Shown piece after piece: positions 25,401-30,460 of a DNA stretch of 64,000 nucleotides. The translations under genes and the position numbers were made by a program. This DNA is from Polytrichum commune. Its lineage: Eukaryota > Streptophyta > Polytrichopsida > Polytrichales > Polytrichaceae. A model generated the notes under the pieces. The model was not told where the DNA came from. It worked only from the letters and a program-made list of their open reading frames with translations, and did not search any database. The stretch spans positions 14,260,001 to 14,324,000 of the forward strand of contig OX485809.1 of assembly GCA_950295325.1 (NCBI GenBank), given 5' to 3'. Within the stretch, counting starts at the first letter, position 1. The number at the start of each line of letters is the position of its first letter.

Positions 25401-26840
25401 TAGTCAACATTTTTTTTTTGGGGGGGGATATGTGACCATTTAACGAGCACGAGAATCGTCACTTCGATAATGTTTAATAGGATGTTCATATGAAATCCAC
25501 AAGTTATGAGGAAAGTGGTACAACCTCAACATGGATTCGCTAACTATCTTGGGGGGAAAAAAAAAAAAAAAAAAAAACTTAGATTGATATCTTTAAGGTA
25601 TAATTACATGTTGGCTTTGTGATCTTCACATTTCCTCATCCAAAAAACACAATGTAGATTGTTCACAACATGCTTCCATTTCAAGCTAACTTATGATTAG
25701 CTTAATGTAACTCCTTTGGGGTATCCCACTTACATTTTGAGGTGGCCCTAGCGTGCATTAAAAGCACAATCAGATATAGCAAAATGATGATGGTAACTGG
25801 AACCTGCAAGTTACCTATTTGAGGATCACAAAGATAACTCCATTTGAATCTCATGCACACCGAACCCGAAATCTGAAACCTTCTAGCATGTAAAAAGAAG
25901 ATTAATTACCGTGGTAGGGTGATTATGCAATTTTTATTTGTGAAAAAATAAACATAGGCTTGCTATAAAACTCAAATACTTGACTACACTAATTATTTTA
26001 TTTAGTGAGGGTGGGATAATAGTGTGTGTGGGAAATTAGTGAAGGTGATACTAAATACCTTCATCCTATGAAATTAGTGCCACCATAAGATCTAGGAAGC
26101 ATTGTTCATCCCGACACTATTCACTAAAAGTACCAACACTATTTACTATAAATAATATACTCATAGCAAAACTATTCACAACATTCATGCTATTCATACC
26201 AACATCAATTTCTCCTTATTATCTAAGTTTCTTTCCCAAATTAGTCTAGTTCAAGCAATATGAGGTGAATCAGCAACATACCTATAGGGGGTCAAGTTTT
26301 GATGTTGGATGGATGAGATATATGCTTGTATGCAATAATTCTCCCTCTCCAAATATTTTGGACTTGTGTATGCAGGTAGATTACTTGGTTTATTCACAAA
26401 CAGGTAGGTTTCATGCAGGGACAGTCGAGTAAGCATAATGAACTGAAATGTTTTACAAACAACACACAACATCACAAGTGCAGGATACATTGTCGACCAA
26501 GTTCATTTCACTTTATACAATAATGCTAAAAATACAGTTTATGTTGGGAGGACAACCTAGTGTTGATGTCCAATTGCCTGGGGTAAGGGAATCTCTCAGA
26601 TGGCACATAGTATACTACAGTCCCATAATTTATCTAATACTTGTCCCAAGAAAACTTTGATGTGTCAATTTTTTTTCCTAAATAACCCTTTGAGGGATGT
26701 GTGTTGAAGTTTATGTTCATGATTCTTTAATGACCAAAAAAGCCTTGATTTAGCTCCCAGTAAAGTTCTCCCTACAAGTTTGTATTCCTATTGAATGATT
26801 TCCCCTGTAAAGGGACAGTATATACACACTACTACCAGAT
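22460..26840. other. Gene-free stretch upstream of the TFIIIA-like 3' end
   Basis: No gene supported. It contains a 141-bp foldback (22985-23125), a partial copy of the agttatcc-family MITE (about 23885-24130), an inverted partial copy of the caaatccaaatc repeat (25390-25540), an A22 run near 25556-25577, and about 25985-26180, a fragment related to the nested element at 53 kb. 26240-26660 is less AT-rich with a few splice-like signals, but I could not build an exon chain there. Confidence 0.5.
22985..23125. repeat. Near-perfect 141-bp foldback (hairpin)
   Basis: Two arms of about 70 nt are complementary at roughly six of every seven positions and meet at 23055 with almost no loop (cggAccg). 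The inner arm 'aatattcctcacattcgg' and the outer blocks 'tgtgggactcaca' and 'aacattattca' are perfectly paired, with mismatches between. It could be a foldback transposon remnant, a young inverted-duplication small-RNA locus, or a simple inverted duplication. The lack of a loop argues against a standard microRNA precursor. Confidence 0.85.
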
Positions 26841-28857
26841 TTAACAAGACTGACACTTCCTTCCTGACAACTCACACATGACTTTGAAGGCATAGCGTTT
26901 GGTAAAAAGGTCATCAACATGTTGAATCATAAAACGTTTCCGGCCACCTTGTGGTCTCATTCCGAATTCAATATCTTCAGCTTCAAAATCTACAACCTGT
27001 ATCAGCCAAAACTAATGTCAATGAATAGGTCAATTTTGAGAGATGATAGTATTAGGTCAGTACGTTCTTTGCCATGAGATCTGCTGCAAAGTAGTCACTT
27101 TGCTCTATGAGCACAGTGTATTCCTAAGAGAACCAGGAACATTGATTTAGACACCTATCACCAAAAAATAGCTCATATATCATTGTTGTACACTTAGACT
27201 TGGTTGAATAACCTACAAGAGAATACTTGCTCCTGAAGACATAACAGTTACATTCCTATCAAGAAGTAAATCCAATGTGAAGGAAAAGTACAGCCAACTG
27301 GAGAAGCCTTGTCACATGTGTGAGAACTAAGACCTCATGTAAGTTATGCAGACTTTCCACAATGAAGAGATGATGGTTTACTAGAATTGTGTGCAACACT
27401 TTTAGTACTTCTGATGGCTGAGAGTGAACAACAGCTTCATGCTTTGTCACCTTATATGGAGTTCGCATAGTGCACTGTGAGCACTTGAACTGCTCTGATG
27501 TGTGTGTCCAAATTGGATTTATGAAAACAGATCATCTTACAAATATCAATCACCTAGTAATGCACACCTCGTGGAGGAGGACCAAGAATGTTCACGATCT
27601 GAACGTATTTGCATACTGACTCTCAATCCATCATCCTAATTCCTTCATCTTTTAATGTTACTCGGTGAGGGACAAAAATTTGCATCCAAAGGGACTCACT
27701 TGACTGACAAATTGCTTATGTATCCTCACAGGATTTGGCTGTAAGTGCACCTCACAATAACATATATACCACACAGTCCTATAACCACAGAGAAGCAAGG
27801 ATGTGCTCAAATGAAGCTAGGAACCATACCGAGCTATAAGTATGCAGACAAGCAGGATGAGGACACTGGATCCTAAGAGCTCCTCCAGTGTGCAGTAAAA
27901 TGTGCATCTTCAGTTGTCTTCTCAACATGGATAAGCCACATACATCACAAATGACATGACAATGTGACAATTTGCGGTGTGCTTGTAGCTGAGGAACATC
28001 AGCAAATACCTCCCCACACCCCGGTTCCATGCACACTACCTGGTCAACCACCATGGACTCTGCATTGCATACCCAAAGGAAGCAGCATCATAGAGCAAAT
28101 CATCAACAATGATATAAGTAAAAGGAGATTGAAGCAACTGAATGTTCCTCGGAGGTTATTACCCTCCAAGTACTAATCCAGTCTAAGGCACCTTGACTTC
28201 AGAGTTCGGATGGGATCTGGTAGGCCTTAGTTTCTCCAAAACAATCACTGTGAGCAGCAGCATCACAGAGCAAAACCATCAGAAGTGACATAACAAGTAG
28301 ACTAGTAGGAGAATGAAGCACTGGATGTTCCCAAGAGGGTTGCTACCCTCCCAGTACTAACCCAGCCTAAGGCACCTTGACTTCAGAGTTCGGATGGGAT
28401 CTGGTAGGCCTTAGTTTCTCCAAGCCGCAACCTGTTCATTTCTTGAAAAAAAACCAACGACACCAATTCAACAAAATATTCTCATAAACTCAAATCCTAT
28501 GTAACCAAACCCCTACCCAACCCTAACTCCAAGACCCTCTTCCAACATGGGCAATCAATAATGCCCACATATGCAACTACCGGCACCATTTCAAAAGCAA
28601 TTCTAAAAGCCTTACAATACATCCAAAACACACTAAAAACATCGGCAACGCATCAAGAAGAGCACCAAGCCACACAAACTCTTAACCCTAACACTATGCG
28701 CTTACCTTGTCAGAGTGAGAAGCCATGTGCTGCTTCAGCAACGCGGGTTTGTGGAGACACATTCCACACACCAAACACGTGTACTTCCCCTCTCTCTCTC
28801 CCTCCTGCCGTTGCTCTCTCCGCTTTCGTCATCACCTTCAATTTTGGAAGATTGCAT
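26841..28857 (-). CDS. TFIIIA: TFIIIA-like zinc-finger gene with 5S-mimic intron
   Basis: Transcription factor IIIA binds the 5S rRNA gene and 5S rRNA. Exons read by eye on the minus strand, all phase 0: 28706-28857, 27830-28057, 27700-27738, 27409-27492, 27064-27123 and 26841-26996, with stop at 26841-26843. Exon 1 encodes a finger (YTCLVCG then LLKQHMASH) and stops at SDK before GTAAG, the same position where Arabidopsis TFIIIA carries its 5S-mimic exon. Exon 2 has QVVCMEPGCG, HVICDVCG and IQCPHPAC fingers. Exon 4 has FKCSQC ending KHEAVVH. The last exon ends in the TFIIIA tail (DFEAED then RPQGGRKRF). Oddities: only about five finger-like units instead of nine, the penultimate exon (DYFAADLMAKN) has lost the Cys and His of the last finger, the third finger's second His is missing, and the ATG at 28855-28857 is out of frame with the first finger across a GA tract. 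It may be a diverging paralogue or a decaying gene. Acceptors at 28057 and 27492 need the second AG of 'cagag'. Confidence 0.75.
28137..28239 (-). ncRNA. 5S rRNA mimic (P5SM) element, downstream copy
   Basis: Read on the minus strand this contains CCCATCCGAACTCTGAAGT, matching the 5S rRNA segment CCCATCAGAACTCCGAAGT, then AGTACTTGGAGGGTAATA and CCTCC, matching the loop E and helix IV part of 5S. It lies inside the first intron of the TFIIIA-like gene. In Arabidopsis and other plants such a 5S mimic is an alternative exon with a premature stop; ribosomal protein L5 binds it and promotes skipping, linking TFIIIA to L5 and 5S levels. Shares 57 identical bases (28183-28239) with the second copy. 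Confidence 0.85.
28318..28423 (-). ncRNA. 5S rRNA mimic (P5SM) element, upstream copy
   Basis: A second, tandem copy of the 5S-like cassette, offset 184 bp from the other. The 5S-matching core 28367-28423 is identical in both. The helix IV-like part differs but still pairs (GGGAGGGT with ACCCTCTT here; TGGAGGGT with ACCTCCGA in the other copy). If spliced in at the AG after 'gagaaactaag', the frame following SDK would read eight codons and stop at TGA. Splice sites of the cassette are inferred, not demonstrated. Confidence 0.85.
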
Positions 28858-29380
28858 TCAACCACTTTGAGCAAAAATTGTTTCTTACTTCACATCCAAG
28901 AGTGCCCTTCCTCGTGTGTTTTGGAAGAGATGAGCATGCGGAATGGCCCCCTAAAACTGCAAAAGACGATTATTGTTGAAACCACAATACCAAGTATTGG
29001 TTTTAAAATATATTCGTCAATCTTATGGTTATGGTTACATTCTCACAGAGGTATCATCATACGCCGGGGGCCTCAAACCTTAAACCCTAAACCCTAATCC
29101 TTTCATTTCATTTCAAATATTTTACGGTGTCAAACAACATGTTCGCTTTACGAAAGAAGTTCGCGACGAATTAACCCTCTGCTACAGCATCGTCTGCAAC
29201 AAGTTTAAGTAGTGACACATTTAACTTCAAGATTGCTCTCATGAGAGAACATGCTTCTTCAATCCTAAAACCTTGGACCTCCGAATGTGCCAAGAAAATG
29301 AAGCAAGCTGGAAGCCACAGTTACCACGAACTCATCAATTATCCCAAACTATAAGAATTTAATGACAAGGTGAACATTAC

Positions 29381-29571
29381 CTTGAGTAGAAGAGAATCGG
29401 GTTGGCTATGCTGGGATCCACAGGACCATCTGAACTTTCTGAGCTGTCATTACAATGACTCTGCTGCTCAACACTTAATGCAAGCTCTGCTTGTTGATAA
29501 CCTTTGCTCTTCAAGTATGCCAACACTGCTTGCACGACTTTATCATCCTCCATTTCTTTCTCGTCCTCCAT
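29381..29571 (-). CDS. TAF5: Orphan TAF5-like first exon (LisH domain)
   Basis: ATG at 29569-29571 opens a 63-codon exon ending TCA AG before the donor GTAATG. The product starts with an acidic leader, then VVQAVLAYLKSKGYQQAE, a LisH-type dimerisation helix as in the N-terminus of the TFIID subunit TAF5, and ends DPSIANPILFYSR, which resembles the conserved TAF5 stretch before its first intron. TAF5 is a WD40 scaffold of TFIID and should run for more than 600 residues. I found none of its following exons (NTD2 or WD40 repeats) between here and the TFIIIA-like gene 500 bp downstream on the same strand. It is therefore an exon fragment, a gene with a very long intron continuing to the left, or a relic. 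Confidence 0.5.
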
Positions 29572-30204
29572 TTTTATAGCATTACAGAAACACCACAGAA
29601 CTTTGACGCAACCCGAATTGATTTAAGAGAAATGCAACAAAAGAGTATCACCTACTCATGACATCATCAAGGACAAACTTAAGTTTAGTACTGGCAACAC
29701 ATGGAAACAAAATTTGAATAATAAACAGAATATGCACATGAAATATTTGTGCACTTGATTGCACAGTACTGAAATAGATTGCAAACCATCGGCTATTTGG
29801 TGTCTATCTTCACATCTAGAAAGAATTATTGCGCAATTCTTGAGTAGAATTTACTAGAATATTTTTTTGGAAACGTAAGTAACATCGCATTGTACAGGTT
29901 GTATCAAAAACAGAACGTGAAGCGTGAGCAGCATTACCTTTCAATGAACGAAGCTCGGAAGCTCCTCTGCTCCGAATTCCCCAATGCTCAAAACCTTCGC
30001 AAAGCCATGGCACCAGCCCGTCGAGCCTGCATAAAACATTCATCCGTGTTCTTCAACTAATAGGCCGTTCACTCCGTTCACTGCCACCAGTATGTGTGGG
30101 CCTATGTTCGGGGAAAATCGGTCATTATGTACAGATGACCTGGTTGAGTTCGAGAAAGAATGCGGTTCAATTTGAGAAATGACCTGAAGTTACAAAGACA
30201 GAGA

Positions 30205-30460
30205 CGAACTGGTTGATTTTGAGAAATTACCCAGTTAAAGTTCAAGACTTCACGAGAATTTGGTACCTAAAGTTACAAAAACGAACTGGTTGATTATGAG
30301 AAATGACCCGGTTGAAGTTTGAGACCTCACGAGAATTTGGTACATAAGTTACAAAGACGAATAGGTTGATTCTGAGAAATGACCCGGTTGAAGTTTGAAA
30401 CTTCATGACAATTTTGTACCTTAAGTTACAAAGATGAACCGGTGAGTTTGAGAAACTCAG
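30205..30460. repeat. 77-bp minisatellite, over three units
   Basis: Units begin cgaactggttgatt at 30205, 30282 and 30358 and a partial one at 30435, with spacing 77, 76 and 77 bp. Each contains 'gagaaatgacccggttgaag' or a close variant and ends 'taagttacaaaga'. Diverged half-units extend back to about 30130. Confidence 0.9.

Follow-up and report, generated by a model that had tools for sequence, protein, structure and literature searches.

What is a pair of 5S rRNA-like elements, set head to tail inside a TFIIIA-like gene, doing in the genome of Polytrichum commune, and is the gene that surrounds it still at work? The question is raised by a stretch of 64,000 nucleotides (the window), in which a sequence-only reading had placed two tandem copies of the plant 5S rRNA mimic P5SM. 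P5SM is a known case of a ribosomal protein controlling splicing via a mimic of its rRNA partner. As described in excerpts of three papers, it is a suicide exon that is retained by default, and whose skipping is promoted by ribosomal protein L5 (PMC4538838; PMC6164485; PMC5568362); in one of these excerpts, the stop falls after the first two fingers when the angiosperm P5SM is included (PMC6164485). Here, we report that the tandem is real and is also present in what appears to be the one intact TFIIIA gene among the copies found in this genome, though the copy in the window is a pseudogene.

The whole window was scanned against Rfam at gathering thresholds, and two matches were returned, both full-length, both on the minus strand and both to 5S_rRNA (RF00001, gathering score 38), in agreement with the earlier claim of two head-to-tail 5S mimics on the gene strand. 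The two cassettes (cassette 1 upstream, cassette 2 downstream) form a direct repeat of 117 nt with 85% identity, and their start-to-start distance was measured at 184 bp, the spacing that had been proposed. The proposed 57-bp core is likewise an exact match between the copies. Scoring of the mimics relied on the RF00001 5S model in place of a dedicated P5SM model; when positions 27900-28700 were scanned against all 4227 families of Rfam 15, keeping the best one alone among overlapping related families, no P5SM family was among the 4 matches at E up to 10. The pair also lies at the expected TFIIIA intron, as had been suggested, the one between the gene model's first finger and the finger that follows. 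By sequence and position, the window elements match the plant TFIIIA 5S mimic P5SM. Coordinates of the features are collected in Table 1.

Table 1. Features of the window locus, in window positions.
Feature	Position	Strand	Details
5S-mimic cassette 1 (upstream copy)	28310..28425	-	RF00001 48.6 bits, E 4.5e-07
5S-mimic cassette 2 (downstream copy)	28127..28240	-	RF00001 42.8 bits, E 1.6e-05
57-bp core, cassette 1	28367..28423	-	exact match to cassette-2 core
57-bp core, cassette 2	28183..28239	-	exact match to cassette-1 core
Predicted cassette-1 exon, 85 nt	28347..28431	-	acceptor AACAG^GTTG to donor in helix IV region
Predicted cassette-2 exon, 85 nt	28163..28247	-	acceptor CACAG^TGAT to donor AGG^GTAATA, helix IV loop
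TFIIIA exon 1 remnant, one finger	28706..28847	-	N-terminal part lost; 2-bp insertion shifts frame
Internal deletion junction	28079..28081	-	~720 bp lost relative to C2 gene
TFIIIA exon 3 remnant	27830..28059	-	open frame; 93.5% identical over 77 residues to C2 gene
TFIIIA exon 4 remnant, as matched	27403..27495	-	20-bp deletion and further indel; acceptor AG reads AT
TFIIIA exon 5 remnant	26844..26999	-	from genome protein search
Block common to window and C4 pseudogene	25560..30009	-	corresponds to C4:54345958-54351429

The genome to which the window belongs comprises 408 Mb in 64 contigs, with C1 to C7 of about 42 to 78 Mb, and the window lies on C7. The sequence-only reading had taken the window locus for a working regulated gene, and this is contradicted by the state of its exons. 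Because the N-terminal part and exon 2 are lost, exon 1 is frameshifted and the exon-4 acceptor is gone, the TFIIIA copy around the cassettes reads as a pseudogene, a decayed duplicate within a duplicated chimeric block, and the window mimics have no intact host gene. The 2-bp insertion in exon 1 precedes the first finger, and the finger frame has stops just upstream, with no ATG between these stops and the finger. Relative to the C2 gene, an internal deletion of ~720 bp has taken out exon 2 (fingers 2-4) together with the last part of intron 1 and most of intron 2. The segment 27830-28057, which had been read as the next exon after 28706-28857, belongs to exon 3, the true exon 2 being deleted here. 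The block shared by C7 and C4 begins with a first-exon fragment, upstream of the TFIIIA remnant (window 29380-29571), which we take to be TAF5-like. A genome search with this fragment gave 4 matches, on C7, C4, C1 (C1:28839411) and, more weakly, C6, and none near the C2 gene. No clear target-site duplication or terminal repeat was seen by eye at the ends of the block. A tandem array of imperfect units, mostly 76-77 bp apart, adjoins it (window 30147-30443).

The TFIIIA locus on C2 (C2:59433045-59435915; L003) has retained what the window copy has lost. Its gene model has five exons, GT-AG introns and an open frame of 362 aa and, as read from the sequence, provides the mimics with an intact host gene. 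The protein carries C2H2 fingers (Pfam), and in a comparison with the PDB the TFIIIA chains 1tf6 and 8ffz were within the best 60 of 123 matches, beside many other C2H2 proteins. Among the 61 matches listed in a genome protein search, exon 1 is complete at C2 only, and exon 2 (fingers 2-4) is present at C2 and broken at C4; the exon-2 region is also touched by a short C3 match (29 residues, 69%) and by two matches at 31-33% identity, which are probably other finger genes. The C2 locus appears, therefore, to be the sole intact TFIIIA gene found in the genome. Intron 1 of this gene carries the same tandem pair on the sense strand, between the LKQHM..SH and DHLNRH fingers, with RF00001 scores of 46.0 bits (cassette 1) and 51.9 bits (cassette 2), so that both window and both C2 cassettes lie above the RF00001 cut-off, with cassette 1 scoring lower in C2 than in the window pseudogene. 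The angiosperm P5SM sits at the same finger boundary as the C2 mimics. Ribosomal protein L5 has two matching loci in the genome (6 exon matches). Upstream of the intact gene, at about 690-1560 of L003, lies a stretch that by eye resembles chloroplast clpP and may be organelle DNA transferred to the nucleus.

A 5S search of the 408-Mb genome, in which 47 of 15430 candidates were scored, found at least 29 matches, 6 of them in TFIIIA copies, including the second tandem pair on C2. The mimic-core pattern, searched with up to 2 mismatches, occurs at 17 or more places (all counts from this search being lower bounds): 7 belong to the mimic type (TACC, with at most 1 mismatch) and 10 to the 5S type (CACC; 1 or 2 mismatches). 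Of the mimic-type places, C2, C4 and C7 have a pair apiece and the seventh lies in a C1 fragment of 212 bp, and the tandem is present in all three gene-sized TFIIIA copies. The C4 copy is decayed; both cassettes are present, with cassette 2 not appearing above the RF00001 cut-off, and exon 2 is retained but damaged: it has lost 2 bp, a CAG has become TAG, and a further deletion spans its end. Scattered 5S-like copies in the same genome have bit scores similar to those of the TFIIIA mimics but, unlike them, the five that were fetched, low-scoring loci outside TFIIIA (L004, L005, L008, L009, L010), hold no exact match to the mimic pattern AAGGCNTACCNGATCCCATCNGAACTC. Contigs of bacterial and archaeal genomes gave 0 matches to the pattern, in keeping with its being a plant element. 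Fragments of the TFIIIA gene are dispersed as well: exon 3 fragments lie at eight loci on C1 to C7, of which the six that were fetched (L013-L018) include some of intron 2, at about 86-88% identity to the intact gene, and run on into part of exon 4, and exon 4-5 pieces are found at many further loci. This dispersal looks like gene-fragment capture by mobile elements.

The origin of the pair can be read from the differences between the mimics and 5S itself. In 33 alignment columns, counting gaps, the two C2 mimics share a state that the 5S of this genome does not have, compared with 9 columns where cassette 2 alone differs and 5 where cassette 1 alone differs, indicating that they descend from one mimic by duplication. 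Two independent 5S insertions, which we also considered, are ruled out by the columns common to both mimics. The pair would have arisen by local head-to-tail duplication inside the parent gene, now on C2, and the mimic would have been duplicated before the parent gene was copied to C4 and C7.

Single-strand folds were computed for seven cassettes, and 6 of them take a three-helix form, with a closing helix, a CUAAGGC/GCCUUAG arm holding the 5S-like core, and a helix V/IV arm. In the C1 fragment the CUAAGGC/GCCUUAG arm is without its last pair, and in C4 cassette 1 the first arm is rearranged. Fold z-scores for cassettes 1 and 2, respectively, were -1.82 and -4.37 in C2, -1.46 and -2.70 in the window, and +0.25 and -2.60 in C4, and the C1 fragment gave -0.66; C2 cassette 1 is modestly better than its shuffles, 12 of 200 being as good. 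The helix-IV-like stems had been said to differ in sequence yet both to pair, and the computed folds agree with this. The C2 arms were compared by script, and the MAFFT alignment of the seven cassettes set the 3' arms one base out of register. Between the helix IV/V arms of the two C2 cassettes there are 8 substitutions and 1 gap, with one pair altered on both sides (G-C to U-G) and several altered on one side, and helix IV of cassette 1 has one A.C mismatch. When equal numbers of changes were placed at random in an arm, 0.96% to 2.2% of the resulting arms folded as well (5000 per setting; four settings, direction by mutation bias).

Candidate splice sites were scored with approximate weights, and C2 intron 1 was scanned over L003 2500-3130. 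The two best-scoring donors in the scanned part of this intron, AGG^GTAATA (2.8) and AAG^GTAGCA (1.7), sit in the two helix IV apical regions, and acceptors lie just upstream of both mimics (AACAG^GTTG, 2.9, for cassette 1 and CACAG^TGAT, 1.1, for cassette 2). On the same weights, the constitutive sites of the C2 gene score 0.7 to 6.4 for donors and 2.0-2.9 for all four acceptors, so that the cassette-2 acceptor ranks lower than every constitutive acceptor and is also outscored by certain other AGs within the intron (1.6, 1.6, 1.4). With these sites, each C2 mimic would give an exon of 85 nt, and the predicted intron between the two exons is 99 nt. The cassette-1 donor of the window, AGG^GTAGCA, is weak and did not score above 1.0 in the scan. 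The skipped form of the C2 transcript encodes the full protein, and the premature stop that inclusion of a P5SM brings was found in all five inclusion forms tried, within 7 codons after exon 1, a result that random insertions often give too.

Since intact and decayed copies are present in one genome, they offer a built-in comparison for the parts kept by selection. A three-way alignment of C2, C4 and C7 was used without the sites gapped in any copy, a rule that drops exon 2, the last part of intron 1 and almost the whole of intron 2, which C7 lacks. The changes counted were those that set C2 apart from C4 and C7 alike, whether they fell on the C2 branch or on the stem of the pseudogenes. We chose the regions ourselves, and the P values below are uncorrected for several tests. 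The two cores, taken as 58 sites per copy (the core plus one base), had 0 changes at 116 sites compared with 80/1487 in introns plus 3' flank (two-sided P 0.003) or 19/396 in intron 1 alone (P 0.010), a count that is biased low, since sequence identity between the copies was what defined the core; when the background rate was cut to half as a crude correction for this bias, the probability of 0 changes was 0.04. The whole mimics had 7/227 changes, which is not significantly low (two-sided P 0.19), and their 3' halves alone had 7/111 (P 0.66). For the coding parts, TFIIIA exons 3-5 had 11/498 changes (P 0.003 versus 80/1487), the exon-1 part 7/140, which is not low (P 1.0), and the two together 18/638 (P 0.009), exon 2 being uncounted as it is missing from C7. 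Changes private to the C4 pseudogene were 3/116 in the cores and 30/1487 in the background, with no sign of constraint. Selection on both cores is supported by these counts, not settled, and gene conversion could be what keeps the two cores identical.

We lean, if only slightly, towards the view that the intact gene holds two predicted L5-gated suicide exons in series, both of which would be skipped for a productive TFIIIA mRNA. Each mimic in this gene would be the body of a suicide exon of ~85 nt, with its acceptor just upstream and an in-frame stop within a few codons, and its donor would lie in the helix IV apical region, where folding and L5 binding could hide it. Without L5, either exon may be included, yielding a non-productive message, and full-length TFIIIA would need both exons skipped, such that two mimics in series may sense L5 pseudo-cooperatively, in the manner of an AND gate, with a steeper response or a higher threshold. 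The splice sites used, the binding of L5 and the steeper response are what we infer here. A more specific version, in which the gene has a two-stage protein-sensing splice switch, with L5 gating each exon by folding over the 5' splice site of that exon and TFIIIA made only when there is enough L5 to silence both, is put forward tentatively, and we would sooner doubt it than assume it.

Several alternatives have to be weighed against two serial exons. One mimic alone may work, most likely cassette 2, the other being a duplication leftover tolerated in the intron, and we consider this possible, though not the probable outcome. In the C2 gene, cassette 2 folds more strongly, closes with a helix of 9 bp and offers the better-scoring donor, its changes over the whole mimic are 2/113 compared with 5/114 for cassette 1, and the helix IV mismatch is found in cassette 1. 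Set against these points are the cores, each of which separately shows 0/58 changes between C2 and the pseudogenes, and the cassette-1 arm, which folds about as well as that of cassette 2 despite its many differences.

The remaining alternatives concern the decayed copies and the assembly. The C7 and C4 pseudogene copies, if transcribed, might be decoys that soak up L5 via their mimics. This is a long shot: both C7 mimics are unbroken, and the window copy has fewer private changes in the segment from exon 1 to the cassettes (28081-28847; 5/763) than in the rest (39/1589; two-sided P 0.002), but this low rate could possibly stem from gene conversion or uneven age, and the C4 cassettes are decaying, as seen in the positive z-score of cassette 1 and the 3 private core changes. 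We give hardly any credence to the window locus being another functional TFIIIA gene that has a tandem switch of its own, since its open exon 3 and unbroken cassettes are outweighed by the missing N-terminal part and exon 2, the stops upstream of the frameshifted exon 1 finger, and the lost acceptor and 20-bp deletion of exon 4; a second functional gene in the window is ruled out by these lesions. Nor is the tandem likely to be a single unit doubled by mis-assembly, one of the conditions under which the sequence-only reading was to be given up: a 184-bp tandem is found at three separate loci, and at each of them the units differ from each other in the same way, which makes an artefact very unlikely, to the point of being negligible.

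A tandem in a seemingly single-copy gene is of interest as a direct route to ask whether serial protein-sensing exons sharpen the feedback among 5S RNA, L5 and TFIIIA. The tandem arrangement is provisionally new, P5SM itself being known. In the titles and abstract openings of the literature searched, a scope outside which Hammond 2009, Fu 2009, Barbazuk 2010 and Hickey 2012 lie, the founding P5SM papers among them, a tandem P5SM is not named; Fu 2009 is said, in an excerpt of another paper, to compare mosses (PMC4374538), and could have noted a tandem mimic already.

Like P5SM, the elements described here derive from 5S, run in the same direction as the TFIIIA gene, occupy one of its introns flanked by exons that encode fingers, and would bring a stop on inclusion. 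They differ from P5SM, as the excerpts describe it, in being two tandem elements 184 bp apart, where the known device is a single exon, and the window copy differs further in sitting in a pseudogene. The two-exon arrangement also invites comparison with tandem riboswitches (e.g., tandem TPP), which are reviewed as pseudo-cooperative in an excerpt of PMC9481103. By analogy with tandem TPP riboswitches, two independent sensors of one ligand would stand in series on one RNA, and a steeper response would be expected. Unlike in tandem riboswitches, a protein would serve here as ligand and alternative splicing as output, in a plant host, and the likeness is one of logic rather than of family; if the two-stage switch proved true, it would amount to a pseudo-cooperative AND gate in a eukaryotic pre-mRNA.
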